From positions 1 to 58,295 of IMG/VR virus record IMGVR_UViG_3300009428_000009: a stretch of 58,295 nt of DNA; one strand, written 5' to 3'. Position numbers and translations under genes: made by a program. Positions 1 to 39,969 of this stretch are shown here, one piece after another. The notes below the pieces were generated by a model that did not search any database, was not told the DNA's origin, and saw only the letters and a program-made list of their open reading frames with translations. Within the stretch, counting starts at the first letter, position 1; the number at the start of each line of letters is the position of its first letter. The stretch comes from a virus.

Positions 1-1397
1 ATACAACAGGTGTGACAACTTCTGGAACACCGGGAAATGCTGGGGCTTACACCCAGATAGTTGTGGCATCTGGTGCGCCGACACTTTATTATTACTGCAC
101 AAATCACTCATCTATGGGATGGAAAGCAAACACTCCAGCATCAGGTCTCTTTCCTATTAATAGACAACCCTTTACGGACAGTAATACAAAATTGCATATT
201 GCTTCAAATATGACTGGTGGCGAACAACTAGCATATAACATAGATGGTACATTAATTATTAATAATAAATCAATAAAACTTAATAATGCTTCAAATGACC
301 TGGGTGACTGGCATCACCATTCATTCAACTATAGAGGATCGGATAATGTTCTATTTTCATATTTTGATGGAAATAAAATAGATTCTATGAATATAGAACT
401 TGATATAGAGGAATTGTCAAAGTCTAACTTATTATTGGCATCAACAGACGATTATGACATAACATCTCATTCTATAGTTAAAAGTTTTTCTAATTTGTAT
501 ATTAAAGAAATGCGTGTTAGTAGAAAAATGAGAGAGAGTGGCGATGTATTTACATTACCCGATGCTGATTTAACAACAGACAGCTATACAGTTATACTAG
601 ATGCAACAGTATCCGGAAATCCATTATCTATAGATGTTAGTCCTTACACAGCAGACGCAAAAGCTTATAGAAAAGTGCATAGTTTTAATCCTGGAATAGA
701 AAGTGCTGCTTTTGAACCTCTCGTAACTATTGGCTCCGGTACAAACGCGCCCGCTAAAAATGAAGAACCGTTAAATTTTACTCTCAGAGATGGTTACAGA
801 CCTGTACCTCATTATGTTTTTAAGTATGAATCAGACGGTCTACTAAGTAATCCTACAGGATATACATCTATTGTAGAATCTGACGGCAGCTACATCGGAG
901 AGCTAACAGGTTTTATACATGATAGTTTAGTTACTCCAGATTCTGATTTAGCTTTTGATAGATCAAGTCATATTATAAAACTTAAAAGGTTTGACGATTT
1001 AGGAGATAGTATCAATTGGTCATACACAAAAAGTATACCTAGAAATAATATTCAACTAGGTAGATATGACGATGATAGTAATTCTATATTTTATGTCAAA
1101 GCGTATGATATATCAGAATCGAATCTTCATTGGAATACAGATTTGAATTTTGTCGGTAAACATATAGATTCAGCAACTCGAACTCCTCATATTGAGAGCG
1201 GCACACGATTAAACGATTCAACATCGGGAGATATAGAAGTCATTTTCGAATACAACGGTGACATGGGAGTTGGCGTTACATATATAGCTGATATACAATA
1301 TATTCGTATATTTGATCTAGATAGTTCAAAAGCGATAGGCTTTGACTCAACTCAAGTCACATTCGATCCATTTCAATCTTATGAGGGATATCTATAA
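1..1397 (+). CDS. Virion/fibre protein, 5'-truncated: cupredoxin-like end plus LamG-like lectin region
   Basis: The frame is already open at the left edge, so the real N terminus is outside the window; a GTG at 12 is only the first possible start inside it. The first ~45 residues repeat the end of the cupredoxin-like domain of the complete 189-residue protein at 36784, including 'YYYCTNHSSMG' with Cys, His and Met in C-x2-H-x2-M spacing. The next ~150 residues (a 'YFDGN' turn, then 'LYIKEMRVSRKMR') resemble the concanavalin/LamG jelly-roll common in phage fibres. The rest is Asp/Ser-rich, probably beta, and unassigned. The stop codon overlaps the next ATG (TAATG). A structural, possibly host-binding role is inferred from composition and from the neighbouring fibre and neck genes. 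Confidence 0.75.
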   Translation, partial: TTGVTTSGTPGNAGAYTQIVVASGAPTLYYYCTNHSSMGWKANTPASGLFPINRQPFTDSNTKLHIASNMTGGEQLAYNIDGTLIINNKSIKLNNASNDLGDWHHHSFNYRGSDNVLFSYFDGNKIDSMNIELDIEELSKSNLLLASTDDYDITSHSIVKSFSNLYIKEMRVSRKMRESGDVFTLPDADLTTDSYTVILDATVSGNPLSIDVSPYTADAKAYRKVHSFNPGIESAAFEPLVTIGSGTNAPAKNEEPLNFTLRDGYRPVPHYVFKYESDGLLSNPTGYTSIVESDGSYIGELTGFIHDSLVTPDSDLAFDRSSHIIKLKRFDDLGDSINWSYTKSIPRNNIQLGRYDDDSNSIFYVKAYDISESNLHWNTDLNFVGKHIDSATRTPHIESGTRLNDSTSGDIEVIFEYNGDMGVGVTYIADIQYIRIFDLDSSKAIGFDSTQVTFDPFQSYEGYL

Positions 1398-4114
1398 TGT
1401 CTGAAATTTACTACCATGCGGGTTCATTTAAATTTAGCAAATATTTAGATGACGGCACTTTAGTACCTATTAGTGTGCTGAATGATGGTGTTGATAGTGT
1501 GACATTTAAAGATGGAGTATGGACGTCAAGTTTCGATTCTAGTTTTGATTTTTCTGATAAACCTATAACTCCAATCATATCTTTATACACAGAAGATTCA
1601 GATGGAAACGCTATAACATGGACGCCAGTTTTAGAAAATATAGTTTCAAGTAAAGTTATAACCAAAGTTGTTGGTGGAGACGGCATATATACGATATCTC
1701 CTACATTAGATTTGACGGATTCAGCTTCTATAGAAAAATCTTTGAGTGAAAATAACATTTATAAATTTAAAGGAACTATTGTTAGTCCTACTAAAATACC
1801 TAAAACTTCTGGCGATTCAAATAATATTCATATCGATCAAGGCTTAATAATTCGGTTTAAGTATAATGTTGATAGACTCGACTTGTTCGAAACTAATTTA
1901 GCAGAATCTTTAAAATTTATGAATATGACTTCAAGTCCTGACGTTTTATATGACGCTAATAAAGGAGTTCCTCTGATTTTATCTACAACCGCAGAAGGAT
2001 TAGATTATAACTCTGATGGAACAATGTTGTATATCGCACAAAATACAGGCACAAAATCTATACAGCAATACCAAGTTCCGGCACCATATGATTATAGAGC
2101 GTTTGTTGGTAATGAGCAACCCATAGCATCCTTCGACACATATACACAATTAGGAATATCAAATGGTGAGGCCAATAATTCTAGTTATTTAGAAGGAGTC
2201 GCGTTGAGCGATTCTGAGAATAAGATGTTTGTTGCGGATAGAGGTCACAATAAAATATATCAATACGAATTGACTTCTCCCGGAGATATTTTAACAACAG
2301 AATATCTTACAAATTATTATGAAAATACCCAAGTAGCAATTGGTCAAAAATCTAATTCGGATAAAAGGAAAAATACGCGGACGTCAAGTTTTACGGTTAG
2401 GTTTAGTACTTATTATGGTTTCCAGAACTCATACGGATTATGGAGAAATGGCGTGCATGTTCCAGGAAATGTACTCACAAACTTATCGCAATATCCTAAA
2501 ACCAACATCACACAAATGTCTGCTGATGGAAAACATTATTACCTCATGGACCACCTTCATATAAAATATTTTGAGTTGACAATTCCTTACAACATATCAT
2601 CTGCACAATATGTATCAACACACACGTTTTCTGTGACTTCAACGATTGCCAAATCCGGCAGCCCATATAGAAGTGATTTTATTCATTATTACCAAGCAAC
2701 TTGGAATTATCTAGAGAATTTATCTACAACTACAACTACTGGCCCAGCACATACAGAAACACAGTTCGGCAGTTGGACAACTAGTCGCTATACTAGACCG
2801 ACATCCAATGCTAATCCTCCAATACCCGTTACTAACGAGAGATGGAAAATGTCGCGGTACATATTTTTGTATAGTTTTTACTATAATTATTTGAACAGGT
2901 ATCTTAGCTACTATGGGTACTATTTAAGCGTTTTTACATCATATGCTCAAGCATTTACGATTAGTGCAGATGGAAATCATCTTTATGTATTATGGGGTAT
3001 CGCAAGGCAAAATGGTAAAATACTTCAATATGACCTGAGTGTTAAATTTGACGTATCTACTGCTACAAAAGTATCTGAAGTACCACATCGAATTGGTAAA
3101 ATTTTGAGCGACAACATGATGGAGTTTAAAGATTTGGGCGCTATTTCTATGCAAATTAGCTCTGATGGTCAATATCTGTATATTTTAGACACATATAATG
3201 AAGGCGTACATCAATATACTATGAGTGTACCTTGGGCACTTTCCACGATAGAAACTGATGAAAATATATTTCCTGATGCTGCGGTCTCACCTTATACTAG
3301 CAAGACTGCATCACTCTATTACCTTTCAAGTTTTGTGCCTACACATATGAAAATTAGTGCGAGTGGTGCAAAACTTTATATTTCGGATGACACGGAAATT
3401 CTAGAATATAATATGTCCACAAATTATATGTTATCGACGGCAACACAACAAAATACTTATACAAATATTGATCTTTCCGAAAATTTAGGTTTTGACATTG
3501 CAGGCGATTCTACAGATATAGTGACAACCAATAAAATATTTTTAGCGTCACCAGCGAACAAAAGTATCACTCAATTCAAAATGACAGGAAGCACTAATGA
3601 TAGTGCGCCTATAGGATTAGCTTCTTTAGAGCATAATCAAAAATTTCTTGATCTTAACGGAACAGTTTCGGGGTTATCAAATATTTTGCTTGCTAATAAA
3701 GGAACAGAGATGTACCTTTCTAGTAACACGACAAATCAAATTTACAAGTATAATTTATCGGATTCAAATGAAATATATAGTGCGACCTTCGATTCAGCTT
3801 TTTCTACATCATTTACAAATGTTTCTTCTATGCACTTAAATCCAGATGAAACTAAGATGTTTATTGGCGGCGGCAACACAAGTTTGTCCAGCGTTAGAGA
3901 ATACGATTTAGATAAGACGCCTGGATTATTTAAGAATAGTTCATTTAATAATGATGTGTATATATTGTCGGGCGTTTTTAATAGAGATATTAGAGATATT
4001 AGCTTCAATTCTGACGGTAGTAAATTTCAGACATTAACTAAAAAAGACACTAATAATAATATTTCAATAGATACATATACAGCAAAAGTAAACTTCAATG
4101 TGCGGGCTGTATAA
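1397..4114 (+). CDS. Large virion/fibre protein with beta-propeller-like repeats
   Basis: A 905-residue protein translationally coupled to the preceding gene. It carries at least seven spaced copies of a short motif, [small/N/S]-x-D-G-x-x-[hydrophobic]-Y-[hydrophobic], for example 'NSDGTMLYIA', 'SADGKHYYLM', 'SADGNHLYVL', 'SSDGQYLYIL', 'NPDETKMFIG' and 'NSDGSKFQTL'. Each copy is typically followed by 'IxQY(D/E)L'. Such periodicity is typical of WD40/YncE-like beta-propeller blades. A Tyr/Ser-rich stretch of about 150 residues interrupts the blades near the middle. The first ~170 residues are a separate beta-rich region. No catalytic motif is visible. The position next to the neck genes suggests a decoration, whisker or fibre protein that binds a ligand on the host surface (inference). 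Confidence 0.65.
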   Translation: MSEIYYHAGSFKFSKYLDDGTLVPISVLNDGVDSVTFKDGVWTSSFDSSFDFSDKPITPIISLYTEDSDGNAITWTPVLENIVSSKVITKVVGGDGIYTISPTLDLTDSASIEKSLSENNIYKFKGTIVSPTKIPKTSGDSNNIHIDQGLIIRFKYNVDRLDLFETNLAESLKFMNMTSSPDVLYDANKGVPLILSTTAEGLDYNSDGTMLYIAQNTGTKSIQQYQVPAPYDYRAFVGNEQPIASFDTYTQLGISNGEANNSSYLEGVALSDSENKMFVADRGHNKIYQYELTSPGDILTTEYLTNYYENTQVAIGQKSNSDKRKNTRTSSFTVRFSTYYGFQNSYGLWRNGVHVPGNVLTNLSQYPKTNITQMSADGKHYYLMDHLHIKYFELTIPYNISSAQYVSTHTFSVTSTIAKSGSPYRSDFIHYYQATWNYLENLSTTTTTGPAHTETQFGSWTTSRYTRPTSNANPPIPVTNERWKMSRYIFLYSFYYNYLNRYLSYYGYYLSVFTSYAQAFTISADGNHLYVLWGIARQNGKILQYDLSVKFDVSTATKVSEVPHRIGKILSDNMMEFKDLGAISMQISSDGQYLYILDTYNEGVHQYTMSVPWALSTIETDENIFPDAAVSPYTSKTASLYYLSSFVPTHMKISASGAKLYISDDTEILEYNMSTNYMLSTATQQNTYTNIDLSENLGFDIAGDSTDIVTTNKIFLASPANKSITQFKMTGSTNDSAPIGLASLEHNQKFLDLNGTVSGLSNILLANKGTEMYLSSNTTNQIYKYNLSDSNEIYSATFDSAFSTSFTNVSSMHLNPDETKMFIGGGNTSLSSVREYDLDKTPGLFKNSSFNNDVYILSGVFNRDIRDISFNSDGSKFQTLTKKDTNNNISIDTYTAKVNFNVRAV

Positions 4115-7750: not shown

Positions 7751-9344
7751 AAAAGAAAGCTATCTTGGTAATCCTCAAGTAAAGAAAGATGGCGTTATTC
7801 AGCAGTGGACAAACGCTGATGTACAAGAGTACGCAAAATGTATGCACAACCCTGCATATTTTGCCAAAACCTATTGTAAAATTATATCTTTGGATCGCGG
7901 TCTAGTTCCATTTGAATTATACGCATATCAAGAGGAAATGTTTAAATCGTTTAATGAGAATAGATTCTCAATCGTTTTGGCATGTAGACAGTCAGGAAAA
8001 TCTATATCATCATGTGCATATTTACTCTGGTATGCTCTATTCCATTCCGAACAAACTATTGCAGTCATGGCAAACAAAGGCGCTACAGCAAGAGAAATGA
8101 TCGGTAGGGTCACACTCATGTTAGAAGGCTTGCCATTCTTTCTTCAACCTGGATGTAAAGCATTAAACAAAGGCTCTATAGAGTTTAGCAATAATTCTAA
8201 GATTGTGGCTGCGGCTACTTCAGGATCATCTATTCGTGGTATGTCAGTAAACTTACTATATCTTGACGAATTTGCATTTGTAGAAAATGCAGCAACATTC
8301 TATACATCAACATATCCTGTTGTGTCTAGCGGTGAATCTACAAAGGTTATTATTACTTCAACAGCTAATGGTGTCGGTAACGTCTTTCATAAAATTTGGG
8401 AAGGCGCAATGCAGAACACTAACGAGTATAAACCATTTCGTGTTGATTGGTATGATGTTCCTGGACGTGATGAGGCTTGGAAAGCTTCAACTATCGCTAA
8501 TACTTCACAACTACAATTTGATCAAGAATTTGGCAATACCTTTATGGGTACAGGAAATACACTGATAGCTGCTGAATGTCTGTTGGCATTAAAAGCAAAA
8601 GAACCTTTAAGACGTATTGACAGAGACTCAGTTTTAGTGTATAAAGAACCTGTAAAGAACCACAATTATGTTTGTATGGTAGACGTTGCTCGTGGCAGAG
8701 GTCAAGATTATTCAACATTTAATATAATAGATGTAACAGAAGGTGAGCCTATTGAGCAAGTCGCAGTTTATCGAAATAATTTAATATCTCCTTTATTGTT
8801 TCCTAATATTATTGTAAAATATGCAGCAACATATAATGAAGCCACAATCGTGGTCGAATCTAATGATGCAGGTCAGGTAGTGTGTAACGGTCTATACCAC
8901 GATTTAGAGTATGAGAATATGTTTGTTGAGTCTGTAGTACATGCAGACAAAATTGGCATCAATATGACGAAAAAAGTCAAACGTATAGGATGCTCTGCTA
9001 TAAAAGATTTATTAGAAACAGGCAAGCTAATAATACATGATGAGGAAACTATTTTAGAAATATCAACATTTGAAGCCAGAGGCAATTCATTCGAGGCTAG
9101 TAACGGAAATCACGACGATTTAATGATGAATTTTGTTCTTTTCGGATACTATACAGGTACATCAGACTTTCAAGAATTGAGTGATATAAATGTTAAAGAC
9201 CTCATGTTCTCACAAAGAATGCACGAAATTGAAAACGACATGTTGCCGTTCGGATTTATTGACGATGGTAGAGATGAACCACTAGCGCAACCAGATGATC
9301 CTTGGGGAGTAATTCAACCAGAAGTTTGGCATGATTATCGCTAA
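7728..9344 (+). CDS. 17: Terminase large subunit gp17 (packaging ATPase-nuclease)
   Basis: Motor protein that packages DNA into the prohead and cuts it. The N-terminal ATPase has Walker A 'CRQSGKS' near residue 90, Walker B 'LLYLDEF' near 180 and coupling motif 'TSTANG'. The C-terminal RNase H-like nuclease shows 'MVDVARGRGQDYS', 'VVESNDAG' and 'NGNHDDLMM', carrying the acidic metal ligands. Length (538) is slightly below T4 gp17 (610). Possible starts are TTG 7725, ATG 7728 and ATG 7737, all inside the gp16 gene. None has a clear Shine-Dalgarno sequence, so translation is probably coupled to gp16. All key residues are present. Confidence 0.96.
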   Translation: MLQMILNEKESYLGNPQVKKDGVIQQWTNADVQEYAKCMHNPAYFAKTYCKIISLDRGLVPFELYAYQEEMFKSFNENRFSIVLACRQSGKSISSCAYLLWYALFHSEQTIAVMANKGATAREMIGRVTLMLEGLPFFLQPGCKALNKGSIEFSNNSKIVAAATSGSSIRGMSVNLLYLDEFAFVENAATFYTSTYPVVSSGESTKVIITSTANGVGNVFHKIWEGAMQNTNEYKPFRVDWYDVPGRDEAWKASTIANTSQLQFDQEFGNTFMGTGNTLIAAECLLALKAKEPLRRIDRDSVLVYKEPVKNHNYVCMVDVARGRGQDYSTFNIIDVTEGEPIEQVAVYRNNLISPLLFPNIIVKYAATYNEATIVVESNDAGQVVCNGLYHDLEYENMFVESVVHADKIGINMTKKVKRIGCSAIKDLLETGKLIIHDEETILEISTFEARGNSFEASNGNHDDLMMNFVLFGYYTGTSDFQELSDINVKDLMFSQRMHEIENDMLPFGFIDDGRDEPLAQPDDPWGVIQPEVWHDYR

Positions 9345-9355
9345 AATAGATATTA

Positions 9356-9363
9356 TATAAATA
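9356..9363 (+). promoter_or_regulatory. T4-type late promoter box, tail sheath gene
   Basis: Exact TATAAATA in the 83-nt gap between gp17 and gp18. Predicted start of transcription near 9369, giving a leader of about 59 nt before the gp18 ATG at 9428. Confidence 0.85.
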
Positions 9364-9427
9364 ACAGTAATTGAACATAATCGTATTATGAAAACTTATA
9401 ATTCTATACTTGGAAAAGGAAATAGAC

Positions 9428-11173
9428 ATGGCGTTATTCTCACCATCAGAGTCTCCTGCTGTAGTTGTAAAAGAAATAGACCTTACTAATGGCGTTGCCA
9501 ATGTACCTACATCTACAGGTGCATTTGTTGGCAACTTTAATTGGGGTCCTTGCGACGAACCGACTCTCATAAATAATGAAGCGAAACTGGCAAACGTATT
9601 TGGCTCACCAGATACCATAAATACAGTAGACTTTCACTCAGCAGCATATTATCTAAGATATTCCGACGATCTTTACATTGTTCGGGAGTATACAAGTACT
9701 GCATTGAACGCATGTGATTCAGATGCAGATCACGCACCACTAGTAACAAATACAGACAATTTTGACGGTCAAGTTTCGACTTTAGAGTCTACTGATTCTC
9801 ATACATTTATCGCAAAATATCCAGGCGAACTAGGAAATTCTTTGATGATTTCTGTCGTAGGCGCCGGCGATACTGATTATGCAAATTGGCCATATAAAGC
9901 AAATTTTGACGCTCAGCCAGAAACATCGTCTTGGTGTGTTGGAATTGATTCAGCAAATGCTACTCAATCCAACAGTACTATCAAAGATGAGGCACACGTT
10001 GTCGTTATTGATAAGGGTGGCAAAATTACGGGTACGCAAGGAACAATACTCGAAACTTTCCCATTCGTTTCTATGGCACTTGGCGCAAAAACTTCAGACG
10101 GTACGTCAAGCTACATTAAAAACGTAATTAACACGCAGTCTAATTACGTTTGGCTTGCAGGCTTTAACGGGAAATACGGTACCAACGCAGGCACCGCAGC
10201 CACAACAAGCAGCAACTATACAGCTGGTTTCACAGCCGATGTAGATTTAGCTCTTACTGGCGGCGCAAACTCAGCATTACTTACAGCATCAGACTATGGT
10301 ACTGGATTTGATAAGTTTGAAGATCCAAACGCATTAGCAATCGACTTCTTAATTGCTCCTAGCGTTGCAAATTCGACAGATCAAACTACTATTGTTAATG
10401 ATCTTGTAGGAATTGCACAAAGTATCAGAAAAGATTGTATGGTTGTTACTTCACCAAATAGAAGTGCTGTACTTGGAGCTGCAACTCCTGTTGCAACAAC
10501 ACTCACAGCCGTTGCAGGATTCACGCGCAGTTCATATCTTGCTGTAGACAATCAATTCTTGAAAGTCTATGATAAGTATAATGATAACTATATCAATATT
10601 CCTGCGGCTTCATCAACTGCTGGACTCATGGCAGCAACAGATAACAACTTTGCACCTTGGTTCTCACCTGCAGGAACACGTAGAGGTCAATATTTTGGCG
10701 TCACAAGTTTGGCATATTCTCCAAACAAATCTGAAAGAGATCAGCTATATCAAGCTGGGATCAATCCTATTGCAAACATCCCAGGTCAAGGCATCTTGTT
10801 ATATGGTGATAAAACTCACCTTGCAAGACCATCAGCATTTGATCGAATCAATGTTCGTAGATTGTTTCTTGTACTTGAAAGAGCAATTTCAGCGGCAGCA
10901 CAAAACATTCTGTTTGAATTTAACGATGAATTTACCAGAGCAGAATTTGTGAATATCATCGAACCACTTCTCCGAGACGTGAAGGGTAGACGTGGTATCA
11001 CAGATTTCAAAATGGTTTGCGATGAAACAAACAACACACCGTTGGTTGTAGACACAAATCAATTTGTAGCTAGCCTATTCATTAAACCAGCAAGATCAAT
11101 CAATTTCATCACACTTAACTTTGTTGCAGTACGCACCGGTGTTTCGTTTGAAGAAGTTGTTGGCACTGTATAA
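9428..11173 (+). CDS. 18: Tail sheath protein gp18
   Basis: Contractile tail sheath subunit that surrounds the tube. The start 'MALFSPSESPAVVVKEIDL' matches the sheath family and is preceded by 'AAAAGGAAATAGAC' as ribosome site; an in-frame TTG 18 nt upstream is a less likely start. Sheath features include 'GAFVGNFNWGPCDEPTLI', 'YYLRYSDDLYIVREY', 'APWFSPAGTRRGQ', 'LYQAGINPIANIPGQGI' and the C-terminal 'NVRRLFLVLERAISAAAQ' with the 'FITLNF' strand that links neighbouring subunits. Length (581) is below the 659 of T4, mostly from a smaller middle domain. It has its own late promoter and is followed by the tube gene. Confidence 0.96.
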   Translation: MALFSPSESPAVVVKEIDLTNGVANVPTSTGAFVGNFNWGPCDEPTLINNEAKLANVFGSPDTINTVDFHSAAYYLRYSDDLYIVREYTSTALNACDSDADHAPLVTNTDNFDGQVSTLESTDSHTFIAKYPGELGNSLMISVVGAGDTDYANWPYKANFDAQPETSSWCVGIDSANATQSNSTIKDEAHVVVIDKGGKITGTQGTILETFPFVSMALGAKTSDGTSSYIKNVINTQSNYVWLAGFNGKYGTNAGTAATTSSNYTAGFTADVDLALTGGANSALLTASDYGTGFDKFEDPNALAIDFLIAPSVANSTDQTTIVNDLVGIAQSIRKDCMVVTSPNRSAVLGAATPVATTLTAVAGFTRSSYLAVDNQFLKVYDKYNDNYINIPAASSTAGLMAATDNNFAPWFSPAGTRRGQYFGVTSLAYSPNKSERDQLYQAGINPIANIPGQGILLYGDKTHLARPSAFDRINVRRLFLVLERAISAAAQNILFEFNDEFTRAEFVNIIEPLLRDVKGRRGITDFKMVCDETNNTPLVVDTNQFVASLFIKPARSINFITLNFVAVRTGVSFEEVVGTV

Positions 11174-20445: not shown

Positions 20446-21093
20446 ATGAAACTAATCGCAGAATATTGTGACCACGATCTATCACTGGTCACTGAAGGTA
20501 AAGGCGAAGCTAAGTCTTATCAAATCGAAGGTGTATTTGCACAAGCTGACCAAAAAAATCGTAACGGTAGAAATTATCCGAAAGCGATTATGGAAAAAGC
20601 TGTAGGCAAATATGTTACAGAACAAGTTTCCAAAGGTCGTGCTGTTGGTGAGTTAAATCACCCCGAAGGCCCGACTATTAATTTGGATAAAGTATCCCAT
20701 CGTATTACGGATCTCAATTTTGAGGGAAATAATGTGATGGGTAAAGCACTTATATTAGATACTCCTATGGGTAAGATTGTTAAAGGTCTGCTAGATGGCG
20801 GTGTTCAACTAGGTGTTTCGACTCGTGGTATGGGAAGTCTGGAAAATCGTAACGGCGTGATGGAAGTTAAAGACGATTTCGTCCTTAGCACTATCGACAT
20901 TGTCCAGGATCCATCTGCACCTAATGCTTTTGTTAATGGAATTATGGAAGGTGTAGAGTGGGTTTGGAATAATGGTCTGATCGAGGCTCAAGACATTGAA
21001 AAAATAGAGACTGAAATAAAAAGAGCACCATCAAGAGCATTGCAAGAAGCGCAAGTTCGTGGGTTTGAAAATTTCCTCTCGTTATTGAAATAA
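20446..21093 (+). CDS. 21: Prohead protease gp21
   Basis: Serine protease that matures the prohead by cutting scaffold, core and capsid proteins after [L/I]-x-E. The 215 residues match T4 gp21 in length and motifs: 'IEGVFAQADQKNRNGRNYPK', then 'GRAVGELNHPEGP' with catalytic His72, then 'GVQLGVSTRGMGSL' with catalytic Ser125. Its own N terminus has 'LSLVTE-G' (residues 13-18), a plausible self-cleavage site of the same consensus. It lies between core and scaffold genes as in T4 and starts 3 nt after the tagged core protein. Confidence 0.95.
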   Translation: MKLIAEYCDHDLSLVTEGKGEAKSYQIEGVFAQADQKNRNGRNYPKAIMEKAVGKYVTEQVSKGRAVGELNHPEGPTINLDKVSHRITDLNFEGNNVMGKALILDTPMGKIVKGLLDGGVQLGVSTRGMGSLENRNGVMEVKDDFVLSTIDIVQDPSAPNAFVNGIMEGVEWVWNNGLIEAQDIEKIETEIKRAPSRALQEAQVRGFENFLSLLK

Positions 21094-22219: not shown

Positions 22220-23569
22220 ATGCAAACAACTAACTACAATACACTTATTGAAAAGTGGGCACCAGTTCTGAATGAAGAATCTGCTGGCGCAATTCAAGAC
22301 AAGCACCGCAAGTCGGTAACTGCTGTTGTTCTTGAGAACCAAGAAAAAGCTCTCATGGAGCAGCGCACACAATACCAAGGTTTTGGTGGACTGACTGAAG
22401 CAGCTCCAGCAAACAACACTGGTAACGTACAAAATTGGGACCCAGTTCTGATTTCGTTGGTTCGTCGTGCTATGCCTAACATGATGGCATATGACGTATG
22501 TGGTGTTCAGCCAATGACTGGTCCAACTGGACTGATCTTTGCAATGAAATCTACCTACAAAACTACTCGCGCTGGTGCAACTAGCGGCAATGAAGCACTG
22601 CATAGCGAAGCCGTCACTGGCTTCTCAGGCGATTCCGCTACAACTAACATTGTAGATGGTTCTGGTCTTGCTGGTGTTGCTGATGCTAACGCAGACTCAA
22701 CTATCGACGATAACCGTAATAGTGCAGCTCCTGCAGGCGGCATGACTAAAGTTGAAGGCGAAGGACTGGGCACATCCGGCGCAAGCGCATGGGCAGAAAT
22801 GGGTTTCACCATTGATCGTGCAGACGTATCAGCCAAAACACGCGCATTGAAAGCAGAATATTCGCTTGAACTCGCACAAGACTTGAAAGCTATCCACGGT
22901 CTGGACGCTGAAAGTGAACTGGCTAACATTCTTTCGACTGAAATCCTCGCGGAAATCAATCGTGAAGTTATCCGCACAATCAACAGCCAAGCTAAAACTG
23001 GCGCAAGTCAAGCTAACACCCTTCTTAACGGTGTGTTTGATCTGCAAACAGATGCAGACGGTCGTTGGAGTGTTGAAAAGTTCAAAGGTCTGATGGTACA
23101 AATCGAGCGCGAAGCAAACGCAATCGCAAAAGATACTCGCCGCGGTCGTGGTAACTTTATCATCACTTCTTCGGACGTTGCGTCATGCTTGGCTGCAACC
23201 GGAATGCTAGACTATGCTCCAGCAATCTCTGCCAACTTGAACGTAGATGATACAGGAAACACTTTTGCTGGTGTTCTTAACGGTCGTACAAAAGTATATG
23301 TTGATCCATATGCAACTGTTGACTACATCACATGTGGCTATAAAGGTACAAATGCATACGATGCTGGTATCTTCTATTGCCCATACGTACCTCTCACAAT
23401 GGTTCGCGCTGTTGCTGAGGATAGCTTTCAACCAAAAATCGGCTTTAAGACCCGCTACGGCATGGTTTCGAATCCTTTTGTTGGTCCAACAGCTTCTGAC
23501 GGTCTTGCAAACGCTAAGACTAATCAGTATTACAGAATCTTCAGAGTTGACAACATTCTGGGTGCATAA
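22220..23569 (+). CDS. 23: Major capsid protein gp23
   Basis: Main HK97-fold subunit of the head. It begins 'LIEKWAPVLNEESAGAI', then 'ENQEKALMEQRTQYQGFG' and the cleavage site 'GGLTE-A' after Glu60; T4 gp23 is cut after 'LTE' at residue 65. The mature part has 'LVRRAMPNMMAYDVCGVQPM', 'TGPTGLIFAMKS', 'KAEYSLELAQDLKAIHGLDA' and 'DTRRGRGNFIITSSDVAS'. The length (449) is shorter than in T4 (521) and typical of marine relatives. Codon use is visibly more C/G-ending than elsewhere, consistent with very high expression. Strong hairpin terminators follow directly. Confidence 0.97.
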   Translation: MQTTNYNTLIEKWAPVLNEESAGAIQDKHRKSVTAVVLENQEKALMEQRTQYQGFGGLTEAAPANNTGNVQNWDPVLISLVRRAMPNMMAYDVCGVQPMTGPTGLIFAMKSTYKTTRAGATSGNEALHSEAVTGFSGDSATTNIVDGSGLAGVADANADSTIDDNRNSAAPAGGMTKVEGEGLGTSGASAWAEMGFTIDRADVSAKTRALKAEYSLELAQDLKAIHGLDAESELANILSTEILAEINREVIRTINSQAKTGASQANTLLNGVFDLQTDADGRWSVEKFKGLMVQIEREANAIAKDTRRGRGNFIITSSDVASCLAATGMLDYAPAISANLNVDDTGNTFAGVLNGRTKVYVDPYATVDYITCGYKGTNAYDAGIFYCPYVPLTMVRAVAEDSFQPKIGFKTRYGMVSNPFVGPTASDGLANAKTNQYYRIFRVDNILGA

Positions 23570-34629: not shown

Positions 34630-35193
34630 ATGAAATCTTTTAAGTCGCATATGCTTAATGAAAGCGCCCTAAGTGCATTAAGAGTTGCTACAAAGGCACA
34701 TGAAGGACAATTTAGGAAAAGTGGTGGTAGATATATTGCTCATCCAAAAGAAGTTGCGAAAATAGTCGCAAAATTCAAACCTAAATCCTCAAATCTATCT
34801 GCACTAGTTCAAGCTGCATATCTACACGATACGTTAGAGGACACTGACTTATCGCATGACGATTTGGTCAAACAGTTTGGTGGATTAGTTGCAAATTTAG
34901 TTGATCAATTGACAACTAAGAAAGATGATCTAGAAGCTGCCGGCGGCAAAGGTGAATATATCAAAGGCAAAATGGTTAATATGACAAGCTGGGCACTTGT
35001 TATTAAACTTGCAGATAGATTAGCAAATGTGTCTGATATTGCAAAGCAGCCAGCATCATGGCAAAAGAAATATGCGGGCGATACAAAAATAGCCTTAGAC
35101 GCTGTAAAAGCTGATCGTAAGGATCTTAGTCCTACACATAAGAAAATCATAAAAAACATAGAAACTATTATCAAACCTTATGTGAAAGGATAA
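34630..35193 (+). CDS. Alarmone-hydrolase-like HD protein with capsid-targeting tag
   Basis: HD-domain protein of the RelA/SpoT-MESH1 hydrolase type, which removes the 3' pyrophosphate of (p)ppGpp. The motifs are complete: 'AHEGQFRKSGGRYIAHP' (His38), 'YLHDTLEDTD' (His66-Asp67, Glu70-Asp71) and 'VIKLADRLANV' (Asp129, Asn133). The 187-residue size and lack of a synthetase domain fit small alarmone hydrolases. The N terminus 'MKSFKSHMLNE-S' matches the internal-protein targeting peptide with a gp21-type site after Glu11, so packaging and injection with the DNA are predicted. Such hydrolases can also remove pyrophosphate from the tRNA 3' end. Hydrolase call strong; delivery is inferred. Confidence 0.85.
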   Translation: MKSFKSHMLNESALSALRVATKAHEGQFRKSGGRYIAHPKEVAKIVAKFKPKSSNLSALVQAAYLHDTLEDTDLSHDDLVKQFGGLVANLVDQLTTKKDDLEAAGGKGEYIKGKMVNMTSWALVIKLADRLANVSDIAKQPASWQKKYAGDTKIALDAVKADRKDLSPTHKKIIKNIETIIKPYVKG

Positions 35194-35198
35194 ATGCT

Positions 35199-35546
35199 AT
35201 GAAATCTTTTACTAGATTTATAACTGAATTGACGAAAAATCAACGTAAGAAAAAAGAGTCTTACGCATTGACCTATATCAGGCAAGGTAAGATGGGTATT
35301 CTAAGGATTCGACCATTACCAGGCAGTAAGTGGGTTGAGGTTCGAGGCAAAGCAGGATTTGAAAATGATTACGACGAAAATGATTATTTACACAGAACCA
35401 TGTCTCTTATAGGCAAAGGTGTGAATGTATCAGATTTTGTAAATGGTACAGAGGTTGTATTATATGATAGGGGTGATCCGACAGCAAAGCTAGCCGTAAG
35501 ATCAATTAGAGCAATTGTCAGATATCCAGATGTACAACACTGGTAA
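35199..35546 (+). CDS. Unknown protein with capsid-targeting tag (115 aa)
   Basis: Function not recognised. The N terminus 'MKSFTRFITE-L' is the same tag as in its neighbours, with a predicted cut after Glu10. The mature part is basic at first ('TKNQRKKKESYALTYIRQG') and then a small beta-rich domain ('GILRIRPLPGSKWVEVRG', 'VSDFVNGTEVVLYDRGD', 'VRSIRAIVRYPDVQHW'). It starts 5 nt after the HD gene and is followed 10 nt later by the nucleotidyltransferase gene. Co-packaging with them is expected if the tag works. Confidence 0.75.
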   Translation: MKSFTRFITELTKNQRKKKESYALTYIRQGKMGILRIRPLPGSKWVEVRGKAGFENDYDENDYLHRTMSLIGKGVNVSDFVNGTEVVLYDRGDPTAKLAVRSIRAIVRYPDVQHW

Positions 35547-35556
35547 GGAATAAACC

Positions 35557-36771
35557 ATGAAAAGTTTTATATCTCATTTGAATGAAAGTATGGTCGATGA
35601 CCTTCTGTCAACGCAGATACGAAAAGCAATCAAAAGCGCGGGTGGGAAAATATATCAAATAGGCGGTGTTGTCCGTGATGAAATGATAGGTAAAATATCT
35701 AAGGATCTTGATATTATCATTGTTGGAATCGAGTTAGATGATATAGAAAAAATTCTAAAGCCTCACGGTAAAGTCAACATGGTAGGCAAGTCGTTCGGCA
35801 TTCTAAAATTTGTTCCTACAGGCTCTACTGAAGCTGAGGATGTAGATATTTCTGTGCCAAGAATTGACTCAAAAAGCACAGGCTCAGGTCATAAAGACTT
35901 TGAAGTAGAACTTGGTAAAGGCATTACGCTACAGCAAGATCAGCTAAGGCGCGATTTTTGGATAAATGCACTAGCGAAAGATGTTGATACTGGTGAGATA
36001 ATAGACGTTGATGGTAAAGGCATGAAGGATATAAAGAATAAGCAAATCCGCATGATCAGTCCAACATCGTTCGAGGATGATCCTCTCAGAATGTTTCGAG
36101 CTGTGCAGTTTGCATCAAGATTTGATTTTACTATCGAAAAAGAGACATACAAGGAAATGAAGAAAAGAGCAAGCACTATCTCTACCATTTCTGCAGATAG
36201 ATTCCAAGAAGAATTTAAAAAGCTTTTCAGTAAATCTAAGAAACCTAGTATTGGTGTAAAAATACTATTCGATTCTGGTTTGATGAAACATATATTTAAA
36301 TCAATTAAATTAAAATCAAACGATTTGAAAACAATTGACGCTCTCGGCAAAAGTGATTTTGCTGTATTCATGGGAATATTACTTAGCGACTACGGAAACA
36401 AAGCAGGCTCAACTGCCAAAACAGTCATACGACTTTCGAATACGGATGCAAAAATTGTTCAAAATGTCGTAGACTGGAAAGAAGGTATGAATAATGTTGA
36501 GCTTGCAAACTATGCTAAAAGTGTTGATGTTAGAGCTATAGACGCATTTTTATCTGCAAAAGGATCTAAAACTCTGTCGAGTAGACTAAAGGGTATAAAA
36601 TATATTTCAGTAAAAGACATGCCAATAGATGGTAGAGATGCAGTTAAAGCTGGATTTAAGGGTAAAGCTATTGGAGATGTATTACAATCTGCACTAGACT
36701 ATTCTATTAAGACTGGTAAAAGCAATAAAGAAGATTTATTAAAACATATAAATAGTAAAAACAAACGATGA
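35557..36771 (+). CDS. CCA-adding enzyme/poly(A) polymerase-like nucleotidyltransferase with capsid-targeting tag
   Basis: Class II tRNA nucleotidyltransferase family. Head domain 'IGGVVRDEMIG' (residues 35-45), catalytic 'DLDIIIV' (Asp50, Asp52) and third acid in 'VDISVPR'. The class fingerprints are 'RRDFWINALA' (131-140) and 'EDDPLRMFRAVQFASRF', followed by a helical C-terminal body. Enzymes of this family add CCA or A to RNA 3' ends. The 404-residue length is normal. The N terminus 'MKSFISHLNE-S' is the island tag with a cut after Glu10, which a cytosolic enzyme would not need. Repair of damaged tRNA ends after injection is the suggested role (inference). Its 3' end contains a late promoter. 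Confidence 0.85.
   Translation: MKSFISHLNESMVDDLLSTQIRKAIKSAGGKIYQIGGVVRDEMIGKISKDLDIIIVGIELDDIEKILKPHGKVNMVGKSFGILKFVPTGSTEAEDVDISVPRIDSKSTGSGHKDFEVELGKGITLQQDQLRRDFWINALAKDVDTGEIIDVDGKGMKDIKNKQIRMISPTSFEDDPLRMFRAVQFASRFDFTIEKETYKEMKKRASTISTISADRFQEEFKKLFSKSKKPSIGVKILFDSGLMKHIFKSIKLKSNDLKTIDALGKSDFAVFMGILLSDYGNKAGSTAKTVIRLSNTDAKIVQNVVDWKEGMNNVELANYAKSVDVRAIDAFLSAKGSKTLSSRLKGIKYISVKDMPIDGRDAVKAGFKGKAIGDVLQSALDYSIKTGKSNKEDLLKHINSKNKR
36747..36754 (+). promoter_or_regulatory. T4-type late promoter box inside the nucleotidyltransferase 3' end
   Basis: Exact TATAAATA within the last codons of the preceding gene; predicted start near 36760, about 24 nt before the cupredoxin-like virion gene. Confidence 0.75.
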
Positions 36772-36783
36772 GGAGACCGACAC

Positions 36784-37353
36784 ATGGCGTTCGTAAATAT
36801 TACAAACAATTCTAGTTGGCAATATGATAACGCTCCGCCTGATCCCGGTGCTAATAGCCCATTAAGACCTCTATGGTTAAAACAAACAAATGGTATTAGA
36901 ACTACAAATGGTCATGCTGTGTATACAAGTGTCCGCAGAACAGTAAGTGCTGGTACTGTTACCTTTGCTGTAACAGTTTCAAATCCAGGAGTAGGAAATA
37001 GATATTATATAGATGCAGTTGGGCCCGAGAGAATATTAAGTTTATCAGAAGGTAGAACATATAAATTTGATCAATCAGATTCTTCTAACTCAAACCATCC
37101 ATTAAGATTCAGTGCTACATCTAATGGGACACATGGCGGTGGTAGTGAATACACAACGGGCGTAACAACGTCAGGAACTCCGGGAAGTGCTGGAGCATAT
37201 ACTCAGATAACTGTTGCTGTTGGTGCTCCTAATTTATATTATTACTGTACAAACCACAGCAATATGGGTGGGACTGCAAACACTCCAGCATCTAGTACGT
37301 CTGCCTCTCCTGCAGGCGAAATTAGTAAAACTTTTTGGGATAATGTAGCATGA
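36784..37353 (+). CDS. Cupredoxin-like virion protein
   Basis: A 189-residue protein with the N-terminal segment 'SSWQYDNAPPDPGANSPLRP' seen in marine phage structural proteins, then a cupredoxin-like domain (about 70-165). Potential type-1 copper ligands are all present: His105 in 'NSNHPLRF', Cys155, His158 and Met161 in 'YYCTNHSNMGG'. The C-x2-H-x2-M spacing is that of amicyanin. It lacks the targeting tag that all neighbours carry and has its own late promoter, so it is probably an external virion protein. It is a paralogue of the truncated gene at the left edge (close protein and DNA similarity). The stop overlaps the next start. Confidence 0.7.
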   Translation: MAFVNITNNSSWQYDNAPPDPGANSPLRPLWLKQTNGIRTTNGHAVYTSVRRTVSAGTVTFAVTVSNPGVGNRYYIDAVGPERILSLSEGRTYKFDQSDSSNSNHPLRFSATSNGTHGGGSEYTTGVTTSGTPGSAGAYTQITVAVGAPNLYYYCTNHSNMGGTANTPASSTSASPAGEISKTFWDNVA

Positions 37354-37616
37354 AAACTTTTAAAGCATATATTAGTGAAGGTAGAGACTATAAAAAAGAA
37401 CGCGAAAACTATCTTGGTACTCCTGAGCAGATGAAAAGAAATGCAGCTAGAAAAAGAGCAAGACGCGCCGCTGTTCGGTCTGGAATGGCAGAGGATGGAG
37501 ATGGTCGTGACATCCATCACAAAGATAATAATCCTCTCAACAATGACTTGAAAAATCTAGCGTCAGTCACAGTAAGATATAATCGTAGAGAACCGAGACT
37601 CAGGAATAGAAAATGA
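37350..37616 (+). CDS. Small HNH-motif protein with capsid-targeting tag
   Basis: The 88 residues hold a single HNH-like motif 'RDIHHKDNNPLNNDLKNL' (His56, His57, Asn residues), preceded by a strongly basic helix 'RNAARKRARRAAVRS'. The N terminus 'MKTFKAYISE-G' is the island tag. As I recall, untagged marine relatives begin at about 'GRDYKKE', exactly where the gp21-type cut after Glu10 would leave the mature protein here. A DNA-binding or nicking protein that enters with the genome is possible. The basic helix may also help pack it on DNA. Start and stop both overlap neighbours (ATGA). Confidence 0.8.
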   Translation: MKTFKAYISEGRDYKKERENYLGTPEQMKRNAARKRARRAAVRSGMAEDGDGRDIHHKDNNPLNNDLKNLASVTVRYNRREPRLRNRK

Positions 37617-38569
37617 AAACATTCTATCAATATATGCAATTAGAGGAAGTTTTTAGTCAGGCAAGCTTGTCCAATCATCTCTTTAATATGCCTCTTTTCG
37701 GCGGCAAAGATGGTGATATAATGTCATTTAAAATACCTATGGGTAATGCAAACATAAAAAGAGTGATGCCAACTGAAATTAGAGGCTCTGTTTTTCATGT
37801 CACTAGCGAAAGTAATCACGATAAACTTGTTAAAGGACAAAACAAAAAATCTGGACTGTCCGCATTTAGAAATATGAAACCAAGTAGTATGGATAGAGGT
37901 ATTGCGTCTGGCGGTGGTTTTATCTATGAATTAGATGCTAATCTTTTAGGTTCATTCGAAACGGATGTGCGTTCAGGCGTAGATAAGACTGGTAGAAGAT
38001 GGGTAACATTGCAATCATTATTAGACACTGGATTCCATAACACTTCTGATTTCCCACATATCAACGATTTACATAGACCACTTGAGAAAAACGACTTGGG
38101 TAGTTTACCCAAAGATATAGAAACATATGTGAGAAAAGTATTAGGCAATTTAGATGGACATACAAAAAGAGGCTTACGCCCTGATTGGGTAGATGTACCA
38201 AGACACTTAGAAGATAAACATGGTTCGCCTGACTCAGCTGGCGCAAAAAAAGAGATGGGCAATATTATCAAGGGTTATATTGATACAGTCAACAAATCTT
38301 ATATGAAAAATTCAAAGAAAATAGCGACTGCACTAAAAAAACAATATGTTGATAAGTTGGACAAGGCTGCCTGGGACGAAATGATTGTCAATCAGTATAA
38401 AGTTAAAAAACTACATGTACTACTCTCCGCACCACAATTTGTAAATGGATTATGGTCAGATGTTACAGATGCAATGGAAGATGCTAAAAGTAGAGGTATA
38501 GAGGTTGTTGAGTGGGATAATTCTAGAGATTTACAGTCCCATATATTAGCAACAAGGATTAAAAGTTAA
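37613..38569 (+). CDS. Internal virion protein candidate A (possible ART-like fold)
   Basis: The 318-residue protein is a paralogue of the one at 39028. Shared blocks are 'KGQNKKSGLSAFRNM', 'RGIAS', 'IYELDANLLGSF', 'GRRW', 'IIKGYI' and 'WDEMIVNQYK'. An 'H-x-T' segment ('VFHVTSE', His62), followed about ten residues later by K-x-G-x-N and then Ser-Ala-Phe, recalls the NAD-binding strand of ADP-ribosyltransferases of the PARP/DarT type. This likeness is weak and needs a structure search. The N terminus 'MKTFYQYMQLEE-V' is a variant of the island tag. T4 packages the ADP-ribosyltransferase Alt in the same way, which makes an Alt-like role attractive (inference). Confidence 0.6.
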   Translation: MKTFYQYMQLEEVFSQASLSNHLFNMPLFGGKDGDIMSFKIPMGNANIKRVMPTEIRGSVFHVTSESNHDKLVKGQNKKSGLSAFRNMKPSSMDRGIASGGGFIYELDANLLGSFETDVRSGVDKTGRRWVTLQSLLDTGFHNTSDFPHINDLHRPLEKNDLGSLPKDIETYVRKVLGNLDGHTKRGLRPDWVDVPRHLEDKHGSPDSAGAKKEMGNIIKGYIDTVNKSYMKNSKKIATALKKQYVDKLDKAAWDEMIVNQYKVKKLHVLLSAPQFVNGLWSDVTDAMEDAKSRGIEVVEWDNSRDLQSHILATRIKS

Positions 38570-39027
38570 TGATAAGTTTTAAATCACATTTGGGCGAATC
38601 GTTCAACACTAAAATTCAGTGGAAACAAACTAGCACCAGACCTGAAACTGAAAAATATCTCGGTCGAATAGGTAAACAATTTGTAGAAATGATTTATAAT
38701 TGGTCACAATCTAAAAATATTCCTGAAAAATCGGACGTTAATATTGTATTCAGTGTTGGTGGTGATATGTCTGTTACTGGTAAAGGCGACCAAATGCAAA
38801 TATTTGGCGCAGTAATAAACCACATAAAAGAATTTATAGAGAAAAATCCACAAATAAAAGTCGCAAGTTTTACAGCATCTAAATCTGCCGAAGATGGTGA
38901 GAGCGGAAGCAGAAACAAATTATACAGTAAATTAGTAAAACGATTTGCTACTAAAATGGGCTTTAAAATTGAAGAACTAGATTTGGATGAATTATCTCTT
39001 TATATATTGACAAGGAAAGCAAAATAG
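38569..39027 (+). CDS. Unknown protein with capsid-targeting tag (152 aa)
   Basis: The N terminus 'MISFKSHLGE-S' is the island tag with a cut after Glu10. The mature part has an alpha/beta pattern: 'DVNIVFSVGGDMSVTGKGD', then 'IFGAVINHIKEFIEKNPQIK' and a C-terminal 'SRNKLYSKLVKRFATKMGFK'. The last block (S-R-x-K-L-Y-x-x-L-V-K-R) recurs in small phage proteins that loosely resemble acetyltransferase C termini, but I cannot assign a fold. It lies between the two paralogous candidates and starts on the overlapping stop of the first. Confidence 0.7.
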   Translation: MISFKSHLGESFNTKIQWKQTSTRPETEKYLGRIGKQFVEMIYNWSQSKNIPEKSDVNIVFSVGGDMSVTGKGDQMQIFGAVINHIKEFIEKNPQIKVASFTASKSAEDGESGSRNKLYSKLVKRFATKMGFKIEELDLDELSLYILTRKAK

Positions 39028-39969
39028 ATGCAAAATTTTAAGTCTTATTTATTAGAATTGCATGGTAAAAGTAGTTTATCTCAAAAGCTATTTGATATCA
39101 AAAAAAGCGATAATGAAGGCATTGCAAATTTTTGGATGCCTATGTCCTCAGCACAAATGAAACAGATCACTCCTACTCCTCCAAGAATAACTTGCTGGCA
39201 TATTGCAGCTCAACAGTTTCATAAAACGATGTTTAAAGGTGAGAACAAAAAGCGCGGCATTTCCGCATTTTTGAATATGTCCTCTACGAGTCTTGCTAGA
39301 GGTGTCGCCACTAGTGGTGCTCAAGTTATCTATGAATTGGAAGCTGATTTGTTAGGATCGTTCTCCGGTGATATTGGATCAGAACCCGACAATTCGGGCA
39401 GGCGTTGGTATGAAATGTATGAATTGGCTCGCTCTGATACATACACTGATAAATTTGAAAATACCAAGGTCGATCTAAAGGATTTGGGAACTATGCCTGC
39501 TGATATGGAAAAATATGTTATAAGTGCTATTGAAAGAGTTTGGGGTAAAAAACCTAATAATAAAGGCGAAAGTCTAACCATGTATTGGCAACTTCTGCCT
39601 GCAGAATTAAAGCAAAAAAATAGAAGCGGAGAACTTTCTGATATTATCAAAGGTTATATTGAAGCCGCAACAAAAACATATAAGAAGAATGCTAAAGCAC
39701 TTGCCAAAAAGATACAAAGTCATTATAATGAAGATCGGATGCCAGCTGGACAATGGGACGAGGTAATTGTTAATAATTATAAAATAAGACAAGTACATAT
39801 GACCCATGAAATAAGAAATGATATGCGCTCTGGTGTTCAATTTGAATGGGACAAAGCTGAGGATTGGATTGAAAATAAACTCGGCAAAGAGATTGAGATG
39901 CACGACAGAAATCAAGATTTGGCAATAGAGATTTCTAGAATAAACGCTAATATGCGAATAAAATTTTAA
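39028..39969 (+). CDS. Internal virion protein candidate B (paralogue of candidate A)
   Basis: The 313-residue protein shares with the one at 37613 the blocks 'GENKKRGISAFLNM', 'RGVAT', 'IYELEADLLGSF', 'GRRW', 'DIIKGYI' and 'WDEVIVNNYK', with the His of 'CWHIAAQ' (His58) in place of 'VFHVTSE'. Its N terminus 'MQNFKSYLLE-L' fits the island tag. The pair are diverged outside these blocks, so they may differ in target. A weak ADP-ribosyltransferase-like pattern is the only functional hint. It is the last gene of the tagged island; a strong sigma70 promoter begins 7 nt after its stop. Confidence 0.6.
   Translation: MQNFKSYLLELHGKSSLSQKLFDIKKSDNEGIANFWMPMSSAQMKQITPTPPRITCWHIAAQQFHKTMFKGENKKRGISAFLNMSSTSLARGVATSGAQVIYELEADLLGSFSGDIGSEPDNSGRRWYEMYELARSDTYTDKFENTKVDLKDLGTMPADMEKYVISAIERVWGKKPNNKGESLTMYWQLLPAELKQKNRSGELSDIIKGYIEAATKTYKKNAKALAKKIQSHYNEDRMPAGQWDEVIVNNYKIRQVHMTHEIRNDMRSGVQFEWDKAEDWIENKLGKEIEMHDRNQDLAIEISRINANMRIKF

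Follow-up and report, generated by a model that had tools for sequence, protein, structure and literature searches.

The DNA analysed here is virus record IMGVR_UViG_3300009428_000009, which comprises 58,295 bases from an uncultured virus and is referred to below, at its full length, as the window. Two of its genes are the subject of this study: P0001 (37613..38569, 318 aa), delineated by a hidden Markov model, alignment and an AlphaFold2 (AF2) model, and P0002 (39028..39969, 313 aa), delineated by alignment and an AF2 model. Both lie on the plus strand, as do the codons, tags, head genes and cargo block for which positions are given below. An original prediction, made from the bare sequence, had proposed the two proteins as tagged paralogues of an injected enzyme family resembling the ADP-ribosyltransferase (ART) Alt of phage T4. 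The two open reading frames (ORFs) were borne out, and the sequence blocks that it quoted as common to both proteins are present. P0001 and P0002 are identical at 110 of 324 aligned positions (34%, E 9e-50, BLASTP) and are, as judged from their sequences, true paralogues. They are near neighbours rather than adjacent genes, since a tagged ORF of 152 aa (38569-39027) separates them.

To collect relatives, viral contigs were searched with single members and then with progressively larger alignments. More than 200 were found: the last profile scan returned 224 among 311 candidate stretches of IMG/VR viral contigs, and 79 loci were retained from it (loci are designated L001, L002 and so on). Relatives were also observed in two contigs of metagenome-assembled genomes, binned as Saprospiraceae and Flavobacteriales, although the bin of a contig is a poor guide to its host. 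When six-frame ORFs from all loci were searched with the profile, 164 family ORFs were obtained, of which 151 were near full length, 120 distinct and 80 below 85% identity, the last number resulting from removal of 13 fragments, then 31 duplicates and then 40 sequences at least 85% identical. No Pfam or PHROGs family covers this family in searches with the 80 members; tblastn with 11 queries gave no credible match among 50,697 phage records (best E 3); and no published description was found in the literature searched, which left subscription papers mostly outside. The match of one of the 80 members to PF21111 (EC869-like contact-dependent inhibition toxin), at 17 bits against a cut-off of 27, was dismissed as due to chance, and the PHROGs matches below threshold were spread over unrelated families, with no ART among the matches listed.

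Conservation was determined from the non-redundant set of 80 rows, using P0001 numbering. It is apparent that F24, H62, G96, D118, G127, R129, Y222 and E256 are invariant, while R57, K79, D124, G101 and R128 are present in 79 members and F85, E106, W192 and D255 in 78. Position 83 is Ser in 77 members and Ala in 3, so that the residue combination at positions 62, 83 and 256 is H-S-E in 77 of the 80 and H-A-E in the other 3. The equivalent residues in P0001 and P0002 are H62 and H58, S83 and S79, and E256 and E245. Of the claims made in the original prediction, the choice of His62/His58 as a site residue was upheld by the invariance of that His, and conservation of the proposed site in homologues was observed for both the His (80/80) and the Ser (77/80). 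From its 'RG-[IV]-A' block the Gly is general (G96, 80/80) but the remainder is not. Overlooked was E256/E245, situated in the 'WDE-x-IVN' block, which is the most important residue for identification as an ART. In P0001 the codons are at 37796..37798 for His62, the proposed NAD-site residue on beta-1; at 37859..37861 for Ser83, the proposed second site residue, placed on beta-2 from strand order; and at 38378..38380 for Glu256, which opens beta-5 and is proposed to be catalytic. The codons aligned with them in P0002 are at 39199..39201 (His58), 39262..39264 (Ser79) and 39760..39762 (Glu245). Mean identity is 0.50-0.54 in the core strands, 0.32 in a helical insert and 0.26 at the C-terminus; AF2 secondary structure and low identity mark out a variable segment of P0001 at 38018..38371.

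Structure prediction followed by a fold search had been suggested as a check on the ART guess, and ART folds led the results for both proteins. The P0001 model, built on a 21-row alignment, had a mean predicted local distance difference test score (pLDDT) of 80.1 and a predicted template-modelling score (pTM) of 0.80; the P0002 model, with a different query and a deeper 80-row alignment, reached 87.5 and 0.87, respectively. Foldseek candidates were then ranked with VIA-align. For P0001, ranks 1-4 were all ARTs, headed by yeast Tpt1 (7yw4; Z 7.0, 99 residues, 3.9 A), and the ubiquitin ADP-ribosyltransferase CteC of Chromobacterium violaceum (8htf, 8htd and 8ux2) matched with Z values of 6.2-6.5 over as many as 163 residues. 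As judged from structure titles, 37 of the 50 rows were ARTs, in addition to the NAD+ hydrolase (NADase) Tne2. For P0002, ranks 1-9 were all ARTs, with NAD-bound CteC first (Z 5.1, 159 residues, 4.8 A), followed by Tpt1, DarT1 and DarT. The best Z values were thus 7.0 and 5.1. These models argue well for an ART fold, with a split beta-sheet around an NAD cleft, but are not proof of it, because no sequence profile links the family to any ART and the Z values lie below 8, the value under which VIA-align itself does not regard a match as decisive. The weight of the fold assignment rests on the many different ART families that top both lists, together with the site residues.

An alternative is that the proteins are nucleic-acid ARTs or RNA 2'-phosphate transferases, like DarT or KptA, acting on DNA or tRNA within an injected RNA-repair kit. 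Tpt1 is the best fold for P0001, and Tpt1/KptA and DarT (the latter at ranks 3 and 6) are next best for P0002. Family members are mildly basic (median isoelectric point 8.9; 58 of the 80 positively charged), and their tagged neighbours include a tRNA nucleotidyltransferase and, at L023, a protein resembling 2'-5' RNA ligases below threshold. Like Tpt1/KptA, the tRNA 2'-phosphotransferase, the family has a His on beta-1 and a similar spacing to beta-2. Tpt1/KptA is, in contrast, an RNA repair enzyme of the H-H-h class, and the family is not KptA, because its third site position is Glu in 80 of 80 members rather than hydrophobic. Tpt1 has an extra N-terminal RNA-binding lobe, of which no counterpart of similar size was seen, and neither KptA nor DarT was matched at the profile level by hhalign; for DarT there was likewise no Pfam signal, its hhalign profile being small (7 sequences). 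Activity on nucleic acids is, on balance, considered unlikely.

The site residues were next compared with those of known ARTs, by means of the first and last aligned residues only and with short flanks taken as ungapped. By this range arithmetic, H62 falls at PARP1 862 in all seven rows that begin at model residues 50-53 and carry PARP1 numbering, and at residue 21 of diphtheria toxin in three of three; we take the site residues of that toxin to be H21 and E148. The tankyrase His, presumably 1031, was missed by one residue. Counting backwards from the last aligned residue, E256 coincides with PARP1 988 in four of eight rows and with 987 or 989 in the other four. The motif of PARP1 is H862, Y896 and E988 (PMC3868897). 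Both H62 and, in P0002, H58 fall at residue 65 of CteC, where the motif is R-S-E, composed of R65, S97 and E220 (PMC10810742). The candidate for the second triad position is the Ser (77/80) or F85 (78/80), as opposed to the Tyr of the H-Y-[EDQ] motif of PARP and diphtheria toxin, an equivalence drawn from strand order. The models would therefore place an NAD-site residue, the His, on beta-1 and an acidic residue on beta-5, as in known ARTs, and with the Ser on beta-2 and two models that rank ARTs first they support the original ART guess.

A number of observations weigh against this reading. The residue equivalences derive from the ends of aligned ranges rather than from a printed alignment, and E148 of diphtheria toxin was missed by at least 4 residues. 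Every VIA-align Z value is below 8, a range in which a match can mean a mere common arrangement. Foldseek gave no match in the PDB at E ≤ 0.001 for either model and, for P0001, none in BFVD. No ART family appears in the listed Pfam and PHROGs matches of the 80 members, and a profile search of PDB sequences returned only helical chance matches, to the insert. Comparison by hhalign with small profiles of KptA (6 sequences, from 6 of 11 places), DarT (7, from 7 of 9) and PARP (2, from 2 of 4) gave probabilities below 1%; the places dropped were fragments, frames with stops and loci at which the ORF filter gave nothing or the wrong frame. Controls with seven families of the same phages were also low (0.1-5.8%), and the three highest align at the shared N-terminal tag only. 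In addition to these three profile comparisons the family profile was scored on T4 Alt; a published H-Y-E family of N4-like ARTs may be nearer. For a fold as diverse as that of the ARTs, profile similarity to a named family lends support but does not define membership. Finally, the phage is uncultured, and NAD binding, packaging and injection are predictions from sequence and model.

Z values below 8 would also suit structural or chaperone-like internal head proteins, whose resemblance in shape to ARTs is fortuitous or without catalytic activity; the roles of the T4 internal proteins IPII and IPIII are still described as unsolved (PMC9026906). This is regarded as improbable: the retention of His and Glu in 80 of 80 members, and of Ser in 77, at pocket positions fits enzymes better than filler, as does the presence of several distinct paralogues per contig. 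We consider it probable, from the models and the conserved residues, that P0001 and P0002 are ARTs of a previously unnamed family, packaged in the head and injected with the phage DNA. The family is best called an unnamed ART family.

It was of interest to compare the N-termini of the two proteins with the tag of T4 internal proteins. In T4 IPIII, targeting is governed by positions 4 and 7 and cleavage by positions 8 and 10; the protease gp21 cleaves after L/I-x-E (PMC9026906). P0001 begins with MKTFYQYMQLEE (37613..37648), with F4, Y7 and L-x-E at positions 10-12, and P0002 with MQNFKSYLLE (39028..39057), with F4, Y7, L8 and E10. The P0002 tag thus has the exact T4 positions, whereas L-x-E lies two residues later in P0001. 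All four key positions (aromatic 4, aromatic or His 7, aliphatic 8 and Glu 10) fit in 61 of the 78 members whose chosen start residue is M, V or L; 2 of the 80 fell outside this filter. Both proteins accordingly begin with a T4-type capsid-targeting sequence, which justifies the label 'tagged' in the original prediction and lends support to its injected-tag reading. An N-terminal tag with a cut site, as in T4-type capsid-targeted internal proteins, is recognizable in their sequences.

The same pattern was observed in 270 of 1035 plus-strand frames across 87 loci, including 124 distinct non-family N-termini, and in none of 1588 minus-strand frames. The plus-strand rate is descriptive only, because the pattern was written after the family had been seen; the minus-strand zero serves as the control. 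Of the 61 ORFs listed for the window, seven carry the tag, and all seven are situated in a cargo block of eight consecutive ORFs at 34630..39969, defined by the tag test and by Pfam and PHROGs labels: an HD_4 protein (34630), a 115-aa protein (35199), a tRNA nucleotidyltransferase (35557), an HNH protein (37350), P0001, the 152-aa protein (38569) and P0002. The ORF at 36784 is the only untagged member. In the window, tagged companions thus include the HD_4 hydrolase, the tRNA nucleotidyltransferase and the HNH protein; those of relatives include DUF6267 and NT5C proteins. All of these may be packaged in the head too.

The phage itself is T4-like, as judged from megablast matches of window DNA to a head maturation protease gene and to the gp23 genes of Vibrio phages and Synechococcus phages. 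A gp23-like major capsid protein of a T4-type head is encoded at 22220..23569, on the basis of matches to major head protein genes. A probable gp21-like prohead protease is encoded at 20446..21093, where the stretch 20896-20979 matches the head maturation protease of cyanophage S-WAM1, and this enzyme would probably strip the tag from cargo proteins.

The tag suggests that the first 10-12 or so residues would anchor the proteins in the core of the prohead and that the gp21-type protease would cut after the L/I/M-x-E motif. The mature enzyme, of about 34 kDa, would enter the cell during ejection. From the fold and conservation it is predicted that the ART cleft takes NAD+, which H62/H58 would hold from beta-1 while E256/E245 would position its nicotinamide ribose; nicotinamide would leave and ADP-ribose would be transferred to a host macromolecule. 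By analogy with CteC, the helical insert may pick the target. The paralogues would be part of a larger tagged kit that includes the RelA/SpoT-type HD hydrolase and the tRNA nucleotidyltransferase.

An injected ART-fold NADase would instead consume NAD+ or NAD-derived signals, blunting NAD-dependent defences while modifying no macromolecule. Both models match the type VI secretion system NADase Tne2, NADases with an ART fold are well established (PMC9503650), and a CTP_transf_like enzyme, possibly of NadM type, occurs in related loci. Early depletion of NAD+ would starve the phage too, however, and a choice of targets, for which a pure NADase would have no need, is suggested by the length and variability of the insert and by the several subfamilies that coexist in a genome. 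We hold such an activity to be rather unlikely, and transfer to a host macromolecule by P0001 and P0002 is preferred.

If that reading is right, the family would work like T4 Alt, yet it stands outside the Alt family. Alt is a mono-ADP-ribosyltransferase that is packaged in the head and injected; P0001 and P0002 are likewise predicted ARTs of a T4-type phage (their packaging being deduced from the tag), and partial copies of alt adjoin alt in T4, according to a record note. Alt differs in having 682 aa, as opposed to 313-318 aa in P0001 and P0002, and a short N-terminus of its own in place of an internal-protein-type tag. No similarity to Alt was found by BLASTP (best E 0.099, from a single comparison) or with the family profile, which scored -1.0 bits. 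Alt is filed in the R-S-E class (PMC9503650). Assignment to this Alt/VIP2 class was rejected, the beta-1 residue being His in 80 of 80 members rather than Arg, and the kinship with Alt proposed in the original prediction is not sustained. CteC, the best or near-best fold for both models, is also of the R-S-E rather than H-S-E-like type, is only 6-11% identical to these proteins and has a different insert. The tag is of the same kind as that of T4 IPI-IPIII by key positions 4, 7, 8 and 10; in contrast to T4, this phage group puts it on many enzymes, and the protein bodies are unrelated as far as is known.

Duplication with divergence had also been proposed, and it holds as an old event but not as a recent one. 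In a tree of the 80 rows, constructed by a quick method, P0001 groups with L001, beside L016 and L026, and P0002 with L005. Each paralogue thus has its own orthologues in other contigs, which rules out a recent duplication. Both fall in one six-row group with 98% support, suggesting that the split predates the phages sampled near them. Tandem members in other contigs (for example three each in L033, L093 and L095) belong to different subfamilies, and same-contig pairs (n=28) are 28-47% identical. The presence of P0001-type genes varies: in L014 the HNH gene, the 152-aa gene and a P0002-type gene stand in direct succession, with none of the P0001 type between them. P0001 and P0002 may have different targets.

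Ratios of nonsynonymous to synonymous substitution (dN/dS) against L001 and L002 were 0.14-0.16 for P0001 and 0.07-0.09 for P0002 (0.14 and 0.07, respectively, against L001), which indicates at the sequence level that both genes are under purifying selection. Against L001, dS was 0.68 for P0001 and 0.91 for the HNH gene, in comparison with 0.10-0.31 for the other tagged genes. These high values suggest segment exchange, and it is likely that the HNH-P0001 segment (37350-38569) was exchanged, with the HNH gene at its edge.

Packaging ARTs in the head is a strategy already known from phages (PMC9503650). The present family, which is large (over 200 stretches in viral contigs) and unmatched in PHROGs, in Pfam and in the phage records searched, would fit this strategy, and it supplies concrete residues (H62, S83 and E256) for mutation. 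The short, transferable tag is a tool for asking what a phage brings into the cell; since it flags likely cargo in raw sequence (it occurs in 0 of 1588 frames of the opposite strand), it makes the injected proteome of an uncultured group of viruses readable. A more far-reaching idea, advanced tentatively and at somewhat less than even odds, is that these proteins constitute a new ART class whose H-S-E signature is intermediate between H-Y-E and R-S-E. Uncultured marine T4-like phages would have expanded it into arrays, a genome encoding two or three such head-packaged enzymes and every enzyme recruiting its target through a helical insert of its own; joined with the RelA/SpoT-type hydrolase and the tRNA nucleotidyltransferase on the same tag, they would make up a kit of proteins that enters with the DNA, ahead of all phage gene expression.

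Several other ORFs were noted in and around the cargo block. The tagged HD_4 (RelA/SpoT-like) hydrolase (34630-35193) is a possible injected alarmone hydrolase, and the tagged tRNA nucleotidyltransferase (35557-36771), with PolyA_pol and RNA-binding domains, a possible injected tRNA repair enzyme. The tagged 115-aa protein (35199-35546) has no family; it is 99% identical to its L001 copy at the protein level and occurs in L003, L005, L006 and L016 as well. The untagged 189-aa protein (36784-37353) has tail-fibre-like PHROG matches, and the window ORF at 12-1397 opens with a stretch much like it (GAYTQI...YYYCTNHS-MG).

Related loci also contain candidate cargo proteins of unusual form. At L019:835-6558, on the Flavobacteriales-binned contig, an ORF of 1907 aa fuses a PolyA_pol/tRNA nucleotidyltransferase, an ART-like domain of this family (nt 3031-3915) and a CTP_transf_like domain; a terminase-like gene lies downstream, and the ORF looks like a cargo polyprotein. 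At L016, long ORFs of 1072 aa (1-3219) and 768 aa (8471-10777) contain 'LPEGF' joints, repeated in the first, and the second fuses CTP_transf_like and HNH domains; both are possible tagged cargo polyproteins processed by the prohead protease. The tagged L023 protein (1898-2329, 143 aa) has two H-x-[ST]-like motifs and matches the 2'-5' RNA ligase superfamily (PF13563) below threshold, with an E value of 0.0077.

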